The translations under genes were made by a program, and so were the position numbers. From Pseudomonadota bacterium (GTDB taxonomy: Bacteria; Pseudomonadota; Gammaproteobacteria; Acidiferrobacterales; Acidiferrobacteraceae): DNA of 7,399 bases. This document shows, in pieces, positions 154-7,399 of the stretch; position 1 is the stretch's first letter, and every line of letters starts with the position of its first letter. The stretch spans positions 1 to 7,399 of the forward strand of contig JAJZZU010000119.1 in NCBI GenBank assembly GCA_021797365.1, in the 5' to 3' direction. The notes below the pieces were generated by a model that searched no databases, was not told where the DNA came from, and was given only the letters and a program-made list of their open reading frames with translations.

Positions 154-1299
154 TCAGATGTGCCTTAGCGAGAAACCGGACGCCATGAGATGGCCGGCAC
201 AGGCGTGGCGCAGGCAATGCGCCCCGAAGTGCGGTGTTGTGATTCCAAGGGCGCTCAGTCGAGCGCGTGCGATTTCGCTCATGCTGCCGGCCGACAAAGG
301 GCGTACTGGGGCCCTCAGTGTCAGAAACAGGGCCCGGTGTACGCATTGCGGCCGCACTTCACGCAGGTAGCGCAGGATCGCGTTGCCCACTTCGGGGACT
401 AACGGATAAGACTGCGCGCAGCGCTGCTTTGGACGCGTCACTAGAATGCGGTCGTTCACCCAATCAAGGTCGTCTATTCGCAGTGCGGCAACCTCTCCGC
501 GCCGCAGCCCGTATAGGGCAAGGAGCAAAAGGACAGCCCGATCCCGGATATCAACGTTACGCCCAGTATCAGCGCTGGAAAGTAGGCGCTGCACATCTTC
601 CCAAGCGGGTCCTTGCGGAATTCTCTCCATCACATAGATGCGCGGCAACTCTATGCTGGAGGCCAATCCCGTGGTGCACCAGTCTTGGGACCCGGCGTAG
701 CGAAAGAAACTGCGTAAGCTGTCCGTAAGCATAGACAATGAGGTGCGTGCCCATCCTTGATGCCCCTTAACCTTAATGAACGCATCAATATCGGTAATCG
801 TAATGGCACGCAGCGAGTCGCAACATGAAGGTAGACCGGCAAAGAAACGACCCACAAGATAGCATCGAGTCGAAACTGTAATCGGCGATAGGCCGCGCTC
901 CTGGCGCAAGTAGCACGCAAAACTCTCAAGTTGCTGAGCAAAGGGTCGTTCCCCTTCTGGAAAGCGCACGACGCAACCTTCACTTTCCAGCCATTTGGTA
1001 ATGATGTGAACGAAAGCGCGACGGGACCGACGAAAAGTATCAGTGTCCTTGTCCCACGAAAGCCCTTTAAATCGTCTCCGCTGGTCAACTGCGGATTCGA
1101 TGTCTTGGAGAGAAATCTCCTTACAGTTGAGATCGATACCGGGTGCCGCGGCGAGCGTGATCCAGGCGATATTGAGCAGCCTTGCGCGCGAATACCCTTG
1201 TTTGGCACACGCTCGGAGAAAGCGCTCGCGCGAGTCGGCATGGGGCCCTGTGCGGTAACGCTCAAGGATAGTTGGGTGACGGAACAGCGTCTCAAACAT
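154..1299 (-). pseudogene. Tyrosine recombinase/integrase, C-terminally truncated
   Basis: This encodes 381 residues of a tyrosine site-specific recombinase of the phage-integrase superfamily, which cuts and rejoins DNA through a tyrosine intermediate. Residues about 117-205 match the helical core-binding (SAM-like) domain, and about 230-381 the catalytic domain. Visible catalytic residues are Arg266 (in GLRRGEV), the beta-hairpin Lys291 (in RPKQR), and His361 and Arg364 (HCLRH). The protein ends at GFSLRHI, exactly where family members continue into the LGH box and the nucleophilic tyrosine. Both are missing, so it should not catalyse recombination alone. I chose the ATG at 1299 because GGAGG lies 6 bases upstream; an upstream in-frame start at 1335 has no such site. 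The long N-terminal region before the core-binding domain recalls recombinases found in tandem multi-recombinase elements. No companion recombinase is visible in the window. Confidence 0.82.
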
Positions 1300-1346
1300 G
1301 ATCGTCCTCCATGAAAGGGAATGGACGATCATCATCTACCTGAATT

Positions 1347-1459: not shown

Positions 1460-2244
1460 CAAGACTAACAAGAACGATGCCGCCGACGCTGAAGCGATCT
1501 GTGAAGCCGTGGCGCGCCCCAATATGCGCTTCGTGCCCATAAAAACCATCGAGAGTCAGGCGGTCCTAGCCCTGCATCGCGCCCGTCAGGGATTCGTCAA
1601 GGCGCGCACCGCGCAGGCCAATCAGATCCGGGGACTGCTGTCAGAGTTCGGACTCGTGATCCCGCAAGGCATCGCGTCGATCACCAAACAGGTCCCGCGG
1701 ATCCTCGAAGATGCCGAGAACGGCCTACCCGACACCCTGCGCGCATTGATCGCCCGGTTGACCACCCATCTGAAGGACCTAGACTGCCAGGTAGACGAAC
1801 TCGAAGCCCAGATTCAGGTTTGGCACCGGCAGAACACTGAGAGCCGAAGACTCGCCGAGATACCCGGTATCGGCCCGATCACGGCCACGGCCCTCGTGGC
1901 CTCGATTGGTGATGCGAAGACCTTCGCCAATAGCCGGCAACTCGCGGCCTGGCTCGGACTTGTGCCAAGGCAGCATTCGAGCGGCGGCAAGCCTATGCTT
2001 CTTGGTATCAGCAAGCGCGGGGACGTGTACCTTCGGACACCCCTCATTCACGGGGCGCGAGCCGTGATCCGCGTGTCCGCCGCGAGGTTCACGCAAGAGA
2101 CGTGGCTAAAGCGCCTCCTCGATCGCCGTCCCAAAAACGTGGCGGCGGTGGCGCTCGCCAACAAGAACGCGCATGGTATGGGCACTCTTGGCCCATGGGC
2201 GGGACTATCGTCCGAACGGCAGGCCTTCGCCCCTTGCAGCCTAG
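1455..2244 (+). pseudogene. IS110/IS1111 family transposase, 5'-truncated and frameshifted
   Basis: The frame reads YVKTNKNDAADAEAICEAV from 1455, a stretch typical of IS110-family transposases just after their N-terminal DEDD (RuvC-like) domain. That domain, with most of its acidic catalytic residues, is absent. The middle has a coiled-coil-like helical region, followed by the C-terminal Tnp domain: IPGIGPITATALVASIGD, then LAAWLGLVPRQHSSGGK with a serine at the expected active-site position, then LGISKRGDVYLR. After NVAAVALANKNA the frame breaks near 2170-2173. The usual ending (MVWALLAHGRDYRP, then LAA) is found one frame over, from 2173 to a TAG at 2242-2244. Two bases seem to be missing (GCGCAT for GCGCGCAT). 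The uninterrupted reading frame, from a GTG at 1509 to 2255, therefore ends in a non-native tail. The gene is almost certainly inactive. Confidence 0.85.
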
Positions 2245-2545
2245 GTACGCCTTAAGAGGCCGAGCAGGACATGCGATGAGTGGTGTGATGAGCAGAGAGA
2301 TATAGGAGGCAAGCTCCCACGATTGCACAGGCAATCATGACGTGATGGCAATGAGGTCGGACCGCAAACGGCGAAACCTGCGGGGTCCAGAGCACCGTGA
2401 GTGCGATGAAGTGATGAGGCGCCGTTTCGCATATTCCATCAGGGACAGAGACACAGGTCTCATCAAAAGTCCGGATGTATGGCTGCAATCGATTCTCTTT
2501 GACGTCAAGGATTGAATGCTTGGCAAACAGGGGGCGTGTACGGCC
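2245..2545 (+). ncRNA. IS non-coding end, candidate seekRNA/bridge RNA region
   Basis: There is no convincing gene here; the longest frame (2252-2782, minus strand) looks like chance. In IS110-family elements a structured guide RNA that specifies donor and target is encoded next to the transposase, and in the IS1111 group it lies downstream of the gene. This stretch has that position and roughly the expected size. Visible structure includes a perfect GATTGC/GCAATC hairpin with an ACAG loop (2321-2336) and a GGGGGC/GCCCCC stem (2530-2548). The full RNA fold and its ends cannot be set by eye. Confidence 0.35.
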
Positions 2546-2820: not shown

Positions 2821-3063
2821 ATGCCCGAGATCGGTGCTTACGAGGCGAAGACGCATTTGTCCGAGATCTTGGATCGGGTGCGTAAAGGGGAGCGGTTCAT
2901 TATCACCAAGCATGGGCAGGCGGTGGCGGAGTTACGATCGGTGGCGACCCAGGGCTTGGAAGAGCGGCGTGCGGTTGTGGCCCGCATGAAGGCGTTTCAG
3001 GCCACCCATGACCTAGGGGATATCTCGTTGCGCGAATTAATCGACGCAGGGCGTAAATACTGA
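2821..3063 (+). CDS. Phd/YefM-family antitoxin (VapB-like)
   Basis: This 80-residue antitoxin pairs with the PIN toxin encoded next to it. The N-terminus has the Phd/YefM pattern: IGAYEAKTHLSEILDRVRKGE, then FIITKHGQAVAEL. In this family it forms a dimeric DNA-binding fold. The C-terminal part (about 45-80) is the segment that usually wraps the toxin. The start is well supported, with AGGAGG at 2807-2812 eight bases before ATG. The stop codon TGA (3061-3063) shares its last base with the toxin ATG, giving translational coupling. Family knowledge says such proteins neutralise the toxin and repress their own operon; the palindrome at 2770-2808 supports autoregulation. The length is normal and nothing appears broken. 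It is called VapB-like because of its PIN partner, although the fold is that of Phd rather than of AbrB-type VapB. Confidence 0.9.
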   Translation: MPEIGAYEAKTHLSEILDRVRKGERFIITKHGQAVAELRSVATQGLEERRAVVARMKAFQATHDLGDISLRELIDAGRKY

Positions 3064-3491
3064 TGGCCTTTATCGCCGATGCCTCTATGACGTTGGCCTG
3101 GTATCTGCGCGATGAAGACGCTGAATCTGCCAATCGGGTACGTGAGCGATTGTTGGGGGAGGGTATTTGTGTCCCCGCCCATTGGGCGCTGGAGGTCTGT
3201 AATGCCCTGCTTGTCGCCACGCGGCATGGTCGCATCACCATCCAGGAAATGAGTGAACTTCTACCGGATTTGCGTCTGTTGCCCGAGACCGTTGACCATC
3301 AGACTGACGCGGCTGCCTGGTCGACCACGTTAGATCTTGCAAAGGCCCATGGGCTGACGTTGTACGACGCGGCCTATCTCGAGCTTGCGCTAAGGCGCGA
3401 GTTGCCGCTTGCCACGTTAGACAAAAGGCTCCATGGCGCCGCCATTGCTGCGGGCGTCGCCATCGTCCCTGAGATGCAAAAGGGATCATAA
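3063..3491 (+). CDS. vapC: VapC-like PIN-domain toxin ribonuclease
   Basis: This encodes a 142-residue PIN-domain protein, the toxin of the type II pair. All four acidic residues expected to hold the metal ions are visible: Asp6 (FIADAS), Glu44 (WALEVCNALL), Asp102 (LYDAAYLELA) and Asp120 (LATLDKRL). VapC toxins are Mg-dependent endoribonucleases, often cutting tRNA or the ribosomal sarcin-ricin loop. The target of this one cannot be read from sequence. The ATG overlaps the antitoxin stop by one base (TGATG), so translation depends on the upstream gene. The length is typical and the active site is complete, so the pair is probably functional. I see no clear terminator after the TAA. Confidence 0.92.
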   Translation: MAFIADASMTLAWYLRDEDAESANRVRERLLGEGICVPAHWALEVCNALLVATRHGRITIQEMSELLPDLRLLPETVDHQTDAAAWSTTLDLAKAHGLTLYDAAYLELALRRELPLATLDKRLHGAAIAAGVAIVPEMQKGS

Positions 3492-3610: not shown

Positions 3611-3829
3611 AAACGTGGTGGAGCACGAACCCTCATTGCGACGAATAAGGGCAACCGGTGGTTCTTCGTTTTCGGTCTCGAGAACAACGAGCGCGCCAAT
3701 ATCGACTCGGAAGAACTGGGTGCCCTTAAAGATCTTGCTGCTGATTTGCTGGTTAGGACGGCTCGGCAGCTCAGCGAAGCGGCCGAAGACGGTTCGCTAC
3801 AGGAGATTTGTCATGACAACCAAACCTAA
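3611..3829 (+). pseudogene. RelE/HigB-like toxin, N-terminally truncated
   Basis: The frame from 3611 reads KRGGARTLIATNKGNRWFFV, then FGLENNERANI, then an LAADLL helix and the ending LQEICHDNQT before TAA (3827-3829). This matches the C-terminal two thirds of RelE/HigB-like toxins that pair with NadS-type antitoxins. Full-length members, as I remember them, have roughly 50-60 further N-terminal residues including the start. Here they are replaced by unrelated sequence and an in-frame TAG at 3608. No start codon with a ribosome site serves the remaining frame, so the gene is probably dead. It overlaps the antitoxin start by 17 bases, the native arrangement for this toxin-first pair. The residual frame could still help translate the antitoxin if the region is transcribed. 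Confidence 0.75.
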
Positions 3830-4070
3830 GGCGCGAAGTCGAATTTTCGAGGCCGTTTATGAGACGGCAAGCGACCTGCATCGTCTCGGGTTCATCGACA
3901 AGCGCGCATTGCGGAAGAATCTCCATCTGAACCAGACCGTGTTGGCCGCTGTGTTGAATACCAGCGTGCCGACTGTGCGTAAGTGGGAGGTCGGCGACAA
4001 AGAGCCGAGCGGCCCGTCATCGAAGCCTCTCCGCCTGATTGAACGCAAAGGGCTCGAAGCAGTTTGCTAG
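3813..4070 (+). CDS. NadS/HigA-like helix-turn-helix antitoxin with apparent internal deletion
   Basis: This encodes an 85-residue DNA-binding antitoxin of the HigA/NadS type. It begins MTTKPKARSRIFEAVYETAS and continues DLHRLGFIDKR. It ends in a Cro/C1-like helix-turn-helix region: LNQTVLAAVLNTS, VRKWEVGDKEPSGPS, then LIERKGLEAV. In related proteins, as I recall them, about 20 residues (a segment like RxxFDALCLPPVxxYTPEQI) separate IDKR from the RALR helix. Here the two are fused directly, which suggests an in-frame deletion. The recognition part appears intact. I chose ATG 3813 because AGGAG lies eight bases upstream and the family N-terminus starts there; a longer frame from 3615 only reads the toxin out of frame. 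With its toxin truncated, this is an orphan antitoxin that could still bind operators. Confidence 0.8.
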   Translation: MTTKPKARSRIFEAVYETASDLHRLGFIDKRALRKNLHLNQTVLAAVLNTSVPTVRKWEVGDKEPSGPSSKPLRLIERKGLEAVC

Positions 4071-4309: not shown

Positions 4310-4354
4310 TGGTGCGCCCTAGAGGATTCGAACCTCTGACCTTTGGAATCGGAA
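4310..4354 (-). other. 3' fragment of tRNA-Arg(CCG): island attachment site (att)
   Basis: Read on the minus strand, this is the anticodon loop TTCCGAT (4348-4354, anticodon CCG), the 3' anticodon strand TCCAA, and the variable loop AGGTC. A perfect T arm follows (AGAGG, TTCGAAT, CCTCT), then the acceptor strand AGGGCGC, discriminator A and CCA (4310-4312). The 5' anticodon strand would be TTGGA, but the sequence gives TTGCA (4355-4359). The D arm and 5' acceptor strand are absent. A truncated tRNA starting at the anticodon loop is the usual att repeat left when a tyrosine integrase inserts an element into a tRNA gene. In that geometry the intact tRNA is at the far end of the element, and the element lies to the right of this site. 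Confidence 0.82.
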
Positions 4355-4453
4355 TGCAAAATAACTACGCGTATATTGCGCGGGATATTGTGTAGATATT
4401 TGGCGCCATGCGGCGCCGCAGACACATTAGCCTTATGACTCAGTACGTTAAGC
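4355..4453. other. AT-richer sequence inside the att site with a short hairpin
   Basis: No gene is seen here. The stretch just inside the putative att site is richer in A and T than its surroundings. It carries two GATATT hexamers (4384-4389 and 4395-4400) and a GGCGCC-ATGC-GGCGCC hairpin (4402-4417). Such flanks often hold integrase or excisionase arm sites, but nothing here proves that. Confidence 0.3.
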
Positions 4454-4936: not shown

Positions 4937-6688
4937 ATGGGGGGGCCTGTGGGAGAAATGGGCGCAGAGAACGCTATTCTGGAACTTCGGCTTGTTGGCG
5001 ACATCGCGGGTTCGTTCCGCGTTGCCAGGTACCAGAGAGGATATCGCTGGGGCAAACTCGAAGTGACACGTCTGCTTAACGACATCTGGGAGAGCAAGGG
5101 CGAGCCCTACAGTCTGCAGCCAGTCGTCGTGAAACGTGACAGTGAGACCGCGTGGGAGCTGGTTGACGGCCAGCAGCGACTAATGACGCTGTACCTGATC
5201 TTCGTGTATATGCAGCGCGCTGGACTCAAGAACGTCGACCCGCAGTACTCCATTAGCTACGACACGAGGACGCAGAGCAAGGATTACCTTCAACACTTGG
5301 ACCCCGCGCTGGCCAACAGCAATATCGACTTCTTCCATCTACATGCAGCGCACGCATGCATCCAATCGTGGTTTGAGCAAAAGGGGCCGACGTCGCTCAA
5401 ACGACAGGAAGTCGCCGACGATGTCTTTCGCTGCCTCTGCAAGAGCGTGCGTGTTATCTGGTATGAGGCCCCGAAGGGGCTGGACTCGACGACACTCTTC
5501 ACGCGCCTGAATGTCGGGAGAATTCCGCTTACCGATGCAGAGCTGTTCAAGGCGCTCTTGCTCTCGCGCGCTCGGGGTGGCGTCGCCACCACGGACAGGA
5601 CCCACGAGATCGCCGCGCAATGGGACAGCATTGAGCGCGATCTCCAGCATCCGGACATCTGGGCGTTCGTCGCCGATGAGGTCTCTGCAGATAGCCCGAC
5701 GCGGATCACGCTGCTGCTCGATACGATTGCCGACTGGCCTCGGGGCCGACCGCGACCCCGGTTCCATACCTTCGACGTTCTGCGGGAGAAGATGGAGCAG
5801 AGCAGCCCAGAGACGGTCTGGAACGAGGTTGTCCAGCTCCATGCACTCATTCTGAGTTGGTATGAGAACCGGGACCACTACCACAAGATCGGCTATCTCG
5901 TGGCCGTGGGGCAGCGTTTCAGCGACCTCGTCGCGCTCGCGTCGGGCAAAATGAAAAGCGAATTCGGAGCGTTGCTCAACTCCCGGATTCACGACACCAT
6001 TGACCTCACGCCCTCCGGCATAACAGCGCTAAGTTATGAGTCCGACACAAACAAGTGCGCGCGCCTTCTACTCTTAATGAACGTGGAGACGGTACGCCGA
6101 ATGAAGGATTCGACAGAGCGATACTCCTTCCGCATTCATCGCAGCCAGGCCTGGTCGCTTGAGCACATCCACGCCCAGCACGCGGAGAGCCTAACGAAGG
6201 TTGAGCAATGGAAGGAATGGCTTCGCCTCCACCGCGATGCGCTCGCGGACCTTCCGTCGATCGACAAAGCCCGCCTAGAAGGACTAATCCACAGAATCGA
6301 TGATGCGGATGATAAGATCGATCGGCAACTGTTCCAAGAGCTCGCGCGCGATGTAACGGCAGAATTCACGCTCAGTGATGCATCGGCAGCAGCCACAGTG
6401 CATTCGGTTCATTCAGTATCGAACCTTGCGCTCCTCGCGAGTGGCCACAACAGCGCGCTAAACAACGCTGCGTTCGAGGTCAAGCGGCGGCGCATCATTG
6501 AACTCGATCGCCAGGGAGCATACATTCCCATCTGCACGCGCCAAGTATTCCTCAAGTACTATACAAATGCCGACGCCCAACAGATTCACTTCTGGAGCAC
6601 CCAGGACCGCGAAGCCTACTTAAATGCGATCCTCTCGTCCGACGGCGGCGTTGGCGCTTACCTTAAGCCGGAAGTGCCGCTGTCATGA
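4937..6688 (+). CDS. DUF262 protein with DUF1524/HNH-like C-terminus (GmrSD-like)
   Basis: This 583-residue protein has two recognisable parts. The N-terminal DUF262 (ParB/sulfiredoxin-like nucleotide-binding) domain shows YQRGYRW (32-38), LQPVVVK (60-66), DGQQRLMTL (77-85) and FTRLNVGRIPLTDAELFKA (188-206). After a helical middle comes a DUF1524-like, HNH-type nuclease region: SLEHIHAQ (407-414), SNLALL (495-500), NSALNN (505-510) and Lys516. In GmrSD, BrxU and SspE this architecture couples nucleotide hydrolysis to cleavage of modified foreign DNA, so an anti-phage or restriction role is inferred. The substrate is unknown. The start is uncertain: TTG 4934 and ATG 4937 lack a ribosome site, GTG 4949 has a G-run close by, and ATG 4958 has GGGAG only two bases away. 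The conserved region begins just after ATG 4958. The stop overlaps the next gene's ATG (ATGA), implying coupled translation. Confidence 0.88.
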   Translation: MGGPVGEMGAENAILELRLVGDIAGSFRVARYQRGYRWGKLEVTRLLNDIWESKGEPYSLQPVVVKRDSETAWELVDGQQRLMTLYLIFVYMQRAGLKNVDPQYSISYDTRTQSKDYLQHLDPALANSNIDFFHLHAAHACIQSWFEQKGPTSLKRQEVADDVFRCLCKSVRVIWYEAPKGLDSTTLFTRLNVGRIPLTDAELFKALLLSRARGGVATTDRTHEIAAQWDSIERDLQHPDIWAFVADEVSADSPTRITLLLDTIADWPRGRPRPRFHTFDVLREKMEQSSPETVWNEVVQLHALILSWYENRDHYHKIGYLVAVGQRFSDLVALASGKMKSEFGALLNSRIHDTIDLTPSGITALSYESDTNKCARLLLLMNVETVRRMKDSTERYSFRIHRSQAWSLEHIHAQHAESLTKVEQWKEWLRLHRDALADLPSIDKARLEGLIHRIDDADDKIDRQLFQELARDVTAEFTLSDASAAATVHSVHSVSNLALLASGHNSALNNAAFEVKRRRIIELDRQGAYIPICTRQVFLKYYTNADAQQIHFWSTQDREAYLNAILSSDGGVGAYLKPEVPLS

Positions 6689-7399
6689 AGAGCTACGTCA
6701 CGTCCTACAATGCTCTGTTCGCTCGACGTACGGCGGACGCACCGGTGGTGAAGCGCATCGAGATCCCGATCATTCAGCGGGACTACGCTCAGGGGCGAGA
6801 CAGCGACGCGGTTGCGCGCATTCGCACTAACTTCCTAGATGTGTTGCACGACGCAGTGACAATTGGGCCACCTATTAGCCTGGATTTCGTTTACGGCGAT
6901 GTTGTGGATGGCACACTTCGCCCTCTTGACGGTCAGCAACGTCTCACCACGTTGTTCCTATTACACTGGTATCTCGCGTGGCGAGCGGACCGACTCGATC
7001 AGGAGCAGGGCTGGAAGCGTTTTGAGTACGCCACCCGTCCGAGCGCCCGGCGCTTCTGCGCGTGCCTCGTTGAGTCCAACCCGCCATGCGATGCAAAATT
7101 GCGCATCTGGTTTGAGGACCAGCACTGGTTCCTGCACACATGGCAGCACGATCCGACCATCCAGTCGATGCTGGTTATGCTTGAGGCGATCCATGAGCGC
7201 TTTGCCAAAGCCGACTGCGTCGCTGCCTGGGAGCGAATTGTGCATTCCGATCCACCGGCAATTTCGTTCCACCTGCTTCCCATTGAGCGAATGGGTTTGA
7301 GTGAGGACCTCTATATCAAGATGAACTCGCGCGGGAAACCGCTCACGCCGTTCGAGAACATTAAGGCGAGGTTCGAGCAGGTCTTGGGTGCTCCAGAAG
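6685..7399 (+). CDS. Second DUF262 protein, partial (runs off the window)
   Basis: The ATG at 6685 overlaps the upstream stop codon by four bases (ATGA) and opens a frame that stays open to the window end, 238 residues seen. The DUF262 hallmarks are present: IEIPIIQRDYAQGR (25-38), the motif DGQQRLTTLFLLHW (82-95) and LYIKMNSRGKPLTPFENIKA (209-228). It is clearly a paralogous domain to that of the upstream protein but differs in sequence, with IIQRDYAQGR in place of YQRGYRW. Whether it also carries a C-terminal nuclease or another effector is beyond the window. The pairing and overlap argue that the two proteins work together, perhaps as a complex that senses and cuts invading DNA. That is inference from family context. 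No separate ribosome site is needed, given the overlap. Confidence 0.87.
   Translation, partial: MKSYVTSYNALFARRTADAPVVKRIEIPIIQRDYAQGRDSDAVARIRTNFLDVLHDAVTIGPPISLDFVYGDVVDGTLRPLDGQQRLTTLFLLHWYLAWRADRLDQEQGWKRFEYATRPSARRFCACLVESNPPCDAKLRIWFEDQHWFLHTWQHDPTIQSMLVMLEAIHERFAKADCVAAWERIVHSDPPAISFHLLPIERMGLSEDLYIKMNSRGKPLTPFENIKARFEQVLGAPE

Follow-up and report, generated by a model that had tools for sequence, protein, structure and literature searches.

A GrwAB-type pair of overlapping DUF262 genes at the end of an Acidiferrobacteraceae contig is a probable modification-dependent restriction system

Do two overlapping DUF262 genes act as one defence system, and has that system already been named? 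The question is raised by the right end of contig JAJZZU010000119.1 (assembly GCA_021797365.1), from a Pseudomonadota bacterium of the family Acidiferrobacteraceae; the whole stretch of 7,399 nucleotides was analysed and is called the window here. A preliminary description of this DNA had proposed a coupled, probably heteromeric, type IV-like pair and had left undecided whether it matches a named system. The arrangement was found to match GrwAB, a GmrSD-like type IV restriction system of two genes that was published in 2025 from VSP-II of the Vibrio cholerae WASA lineage (PMC12137116), and the pair is therefore not a new system. We put at about 0.85 the probability that the two proteins make up a modification-dependent restriction system of the GrwAB type (type IV, GmrSD family). 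The features of the pair are as follows.

4937..6688, plus strand: grwA-like gene, encoding DUF262 (GmrSD_N), an alpha-helical linker and a His-Me/HNH (DUF1524) part; 583 amino acids from ATG 4937
4937-6685, plus strand: codons of protein 1, with the stop codon at 6686-6688
5000..5563, plus strand: DUF262/GmrSD_N domain of protein 1, residues 22-209, containing QR, DGQQR and FxxxN
6161..6178, plus strand: EHIHAQ, the catalytic-histidine motif of the His-Me nuclease (H410)
6422..6484, plus strand: second half of the His-Me motif (N496, N505, N510, K516)
6685..6688, plus strand: ATGA stop/start overlap of the two genes
6685..7399, plus strand: 5' part of the grwB-like gene (238 codons), the remainder cut off by the contig end
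6757..7374, plus strand: DUF262/GmrSD_N domain of protein 2, residues 25-230, with DGQQR at 6928-6942 (R86)

The two genes encode different DUF262 proteins, as the preliminary description had stated. Pfam matched GmrSD_N (DUF262) in protein 1 at residues 22-209 (E 4.2e-25) and GmrSD_C (DUF1524) over the short stretch 491-520 (profile positions 77-106 of 138, E 7.8e-7), both above cut-off; in protein 2 it matched GmrSD_N only (residues 25-230, E 1.6e-18). Protein 1 carries QR at 33-34, DGQQR at 77-81, F188 and N192, EHIHAQ at 409-414, N496 and N505, and protein 2 carries QRDYAQG at 31-37, DGQQR at 82-86 and YIKMN at 210-214. E409, H410, N496, N505, N510, F513, K516 and R517 of protein 1 were each identical in 80 of 81 alignment rows, which is every row with letters there, and DGQQR of protein 2 was invariant (81/81 rows).

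Three starts are available to protein 1: ATG 4937 (583 amino acids), GTG 4949, which is the start in the database protein P0001 (579 amino acids), and ATG 4958 (576 amino acids). We favoured ATG 4958: it closely follows GGGAGAA, and the proteins of several close relatives are likewise 576 amino acids long.

The nuclease part had been noticed in the first protein only, and comparison of the families bore this out. At E 0.01, GmrSD_C was found in 46 of 47 members of the protein 1 family and in none of 66 members of the protein 2 family. The nuclease tail motif was likewise found in none of 119 further protein 2 relatives among the matches listed. The DUF262 domains of the two families were homologous (hhalign probability 97.8, 193 columns), and hhalign gave no alignment of the families outside DUF262. 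These sequence data support a nuclease carried by protein 1 only. Beyond DUF262, structure prediction suggests that protein 2 has a helical region followed by a C-terminal alpha/beta part, with no recognisable nuclease in either. For the alpha/beta part (residues ~550-758 of P0122), barely tested alone, there was no Pfam family and no convincing PDB match.

Protein 2 is incomplete in the window. A database protein of 759 amino acids found on 23 contigs, P0270, was 100% identical to its residues 1-234. After residue 234, P0270 reads ERSCPDR and the window protein reads GAPE. The last 20 bases of the window (7380-7399) repeat 6589-6608 of gene 1 in inverted orientation, with 19 of 20 positions agreeing; such a copy was present in none of 200 simple shuffles. 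The coding sequence leaves the otherwise identical P0270 at this inverted repeat, which gives one further feature.

7387..7399, plus strand: probable chimeric contig end; the coding sequence no longer follows P0270, and the final 20 bases of the window form the inverted copy of 6589-6608

We read the final ~13 bases as a probable assembly or library chimera, or an inverted-repeat artefact, and infer that P0270 is the full-length protein 2 of the same population. The longest contigs that the protein database gives for P0001 and P0270 measure 18.8 kb and 24.4 kb, respectively. Its precomputed Pfam annotation is GmrSD_N only, and relatives of protein 2 continue for ~500 residues further without a recognisable nuclease.

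Conservation of the pair across genomes was assessed in two directions. Genome contigs were scanned with protein 2, and the best 80 of 496 relatives were kept; at 80/80 of these loci the adjacent upstream gene, in the same orientation, encodes a protein 1 homologue. By longest open reading frames, the genes overlapped by four bases at 28 of these loci and by one base at nine. Protein 1 was split in two frames at three loci (L008, L034, L071) and cut by the contig end at two (L001, L016); at L022 protein 2 was short (359 amino acids). In the reverse test, a protein 1 profile was run against four sets of 369, 395, 394 and 193 genomes (cut-off E 1e-30) and matched 3, 10, 4 and 5 genomes, each count including the seed genome of its set. 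All 22 matched genomes, four of them seeds, had a protein 2 homologue directly downstream, although at L106 only 285 amino acids of protein 1 remain open. The two results are not independent, since some loci recur in both (L084 shares its open reading frame lengths with L022) and the profile derives from paired genes.

Distances within the two families were correlated (Mantel r 0.959, 72 loci), as co-inheritance would give. The ratio of nonsynonymous to synonymous substitution rates (dN/dS) was 0.06-0.20 in the 10 comparisons, of 11, that yielded a value: 0.06-0.14 against L001-L004 and L006, and 0.20 for protein 1 against L009, where protein 2 gave no value. Like the pairing, these ratios point to more than chance. 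Named relatives came from Myxococcota, Pseudomonadota, Actinomycetota, Bacteroidota, Bacillota, Campylobacterota and others; among the 120 matches in each of three listings, most of them without a name, none was named Vibrio. Pairing and domain content thus support the coupled type IV-like pair of the preliminary description.

Several individual loci were also recorded. At L008, L034, L071 and L081, a grwA homologue in two frames lies beside an open grwB, through decay or sequencing error. The pair at L081, on a Paraburkholderia plasmid, lies near defence-like TcmP and Gp37/Gp68 genes, and that at L108, on a Hymenobacter plasmid, lies ~4 kb from a gene annotated qatA.

GrwA is described as DUF262-linker-DUF1524, and GrwB as DUF262 followed by several domains of unknown function (PMC12137116). 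Gene order in the window is the same, with DUF262, a helical linker and DUF1524 in the first gene. Everything expected of a GrwA was present in protein 1: DUF262 with DUF1524, QR, DGQQR, FxxxN and the His-Me residues. A DUF262 domain with a long C-terminal part lacking DUF1524, as expected of a GrwB, was found in P0270 and relatives; the window itself holds 238 codons. GrwAB requires both genes, R81, H431, N521 and N530 of GrwA, and R86 of GrwB (PMC12137116). The equivalents here are R81, H410, N496 and N505 in protein 1 and R86 in protein 2, and the distance from the histidine to the first asparagine is long in both (86 residues in protein 1, 90 in GrwA). The preliminary description had held that a full match of both genes to one known system would refute it, and this is essentially what we observed.

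Some observations weigh against this assignment. The V. cholerae proteins were compared by published description rather than by direct alignment, and membership is judged from architecture and residue geometry. The arginine-to-histidine distance is 329 in protein 1 and 350 in GrwA. FxxxN is printed for GrwB, whereas the protein 2 family has YxxxN (81/81 rows). The equal numbering of R81 hinges on the chosen start of protein 1 and proves nothing, and the distance of nine between the asparagines does not discriminate because it also occurs in TgvB-like proteins, discussed below. Two distant protein 1 relatives (L094, L095) have lysine at N510, with H410, N496 and N505 kept. The reverse pairing test used a profile made from genes adjoining protein 2, which favours pairs. 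Host and element also differ from those of GrwAB. The present analysis shows pairing, co-divergence, intact motifs, division of domains and predicted folds. The need for both genes, for the DGQQR arginines and for the nuclease residues, and activity on modified phages, come from V. cholerae GrwAB in print only; the same activity would be assigned to the window pair by analogy.

A different kind of partner was considered on the basis of the predicted structures. The closest solved folds for both proteins were DndI and SspE, as would be expected if the pair were a phosphorothioate-dependent effector working with a DNA-modifying partner system. This fold similarity is common to the whole DUF262-DUF1524 superfamily, however. 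SspE and DndI are reported as single proteins tied to phosphorothioation systems (PMC8713573, PMC10952713), and SspE is reported to function only with SspABCD (PMC8713573), whereas no third neighbouring gene cluster was present here in more than 10 of the 80 loci. Profile scans of the left flank named no ssp or dnd genes; the flanks were not searched for them by name and the right flank is cut. We consider such an effector very unlikely.

TgvAB is the other published pair of DUF262 proteins. It too is reported to consist of two DUF262 proteins, one with DUF1524, both required, and to lie in V. cholerae VPI-2 inside a type I restriction-modification operon (PMC11411939). The protein 1 profile matched TgvA- and TgvB-like proteins through DUF262 at 60-100 bits, versus 20.7 bits for protein 2. 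Gene order is opposite, however: the nuclease is in the first gene of the window and in the second gene of two TgvAB-like pairs (L138, L139), which are TgvAB-like by context and are not the V. cholerae proteins, and whose partner has 472-483 amino acids. The histidine and first asparagine are 23 residues apart in the TgvB-like proteins of these pairs versus 86 in protein 1; for V. cholerae TgvB the two residues named in print are H571 and N602, a distance of 31 (PMC11411939). Outside DUF262, the protein 1 profile found only a 7-bit nuclease tail, in TgvB-like proteins, and the protein 2 profile did not match the two TgvA-like proteins at E 10. With the order reversed and the protein 2 profile giving no match to the two TgvA-like proteins, identity with TgvAB was disfavoured and is highly improbable.

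The two TgvAB-like pairs are on enterobacterial plasmids, at L138:3920-7355 (Escherichia coli) and L139:3938-7424 (Serratia). The L138 pair sits within a type I restriction-modification operon, the setting also described in V. cholerae VPI-2. Many Klebsiella plasmids among the matches listed likewise carried paired DUF262 annotation.

The two genes might also be neighbours by chance, protein 1 being a GmrSD/HEC-06-like enzyme that works singly and protein 2 a DUF262 protein unrelated to it. This would fit the best PADLOC match of protein 1 (HEC-06, E 1.6e-21) and the single-chain GmrSD, BrxU and HEC-06, which are reported to act alone, with no GrwB-like partner described in the available parts of PMC11411939 and PMC10952713, but it is scarcely credible given the pairing in both scans, the gene overlap, the co-divergence and the confinement of the better of two HEC-06 stretches to residues 26-93, inside DUF262. 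DUF262 proteins are described as tending to adjoin GmrSD homologues (Machnicka et al. 2015, PMC4619093).

We also assessed the rest of the window, left of the GrwAB-type pair.

154-1335, minus strand: gene for a tyrosine integrase; Pfam matches it up to model position 150 of 172, the point at which the open reading frame stops
1509-2255, plus strand: IS110-family transposase without its N-terminal part, a remnant (NCBIfam model positions 105-332 of 343)
2821-3491, plus strand: Phd/YefM-type antitoxin and PIN-domain toxin (VapBC-like)
3615-4070, plus strand: helix-turn-helix antitoxin-like gene; NadS/MqsA-like NCBIfam matches below cut-off
4313-4370, minus strand: tRNA gene fragment covering the 3' side from the anticodon loop to CCA; the tRNA model gives 21.9 bits (E 0.13)

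The integrase seems to lack its C-terminal end, the last 22 model positions. No toxin partner was recognised for the antitoxin-like gene at 3615-4070, though no search was aimed at one. The tRNA fragment, read by eye as tRNA-Arg with anticodon CCG, scored below the Rfam gathering score of 29, and ARAGORN reported no tRNA. It is likely an attachment site. Since the fragment has its 5' side towards the right, an inserted element would be expected on that side, with the pair just inside. An attachment site and toxin-antitoxin genes marking a defence hotspot, as previously suggested, fit these features; the site depends on this one tRNA fragment.

In the mechanism that we propose, protein 1 (GrwA-like) would be the effector, with a DUF262 NTPase (nucleoside triphosphatase) or sensor, a helical linker and a His-Me finger DNase, and protein 2 (GrwB-like) would be its obligatory partner with a DUF262 of its own. 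The two proteins would most likely assemble into a complex able to recognise modified bases in the DNA of an incoming phage. Nucleoside triphosphate binding and hydrolysis in both DUF262 domains may act as a switch, which would then release the protein 1 nuclease to nick or cut the DNA. What is unique to protein 2 may serve to read the modification or set specificity. GrwAB itself acts on phages with modified DNA, and Bas24 escapers of GrwAB have a changed DpdA, the enzyme inserting 7-deazaguanine (PMC12137116). Tentatively, the GrwB C-terminal alpha/beta part could be an undescribed modified-base reader, with recognition (GrwB) split from cutting (GrwA), and clades like this one (named members mainly Myxococcota and Burkholderiales) could read modifications other than those read in V. 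cholerae; we hold this to be possible, though rather doubtful.

The pair offers a good example, and a widespread one, of a system described only recently, homologues of which are reported in about 1% of genomes (PMC12137116). The function of the GrwB C-terminal part is what would raise its interest. The two-protein requirement is said in a review (PMC12409362) to warrant further investigation. The original description of GrwAB comes from a single V. cholerae lineage, and the window pair and its relatives supply a broad set of variants. This set is suited to asking which of the two proteins is the sensor of modified DNA and what makes a second DUF262 NTPase necessary.
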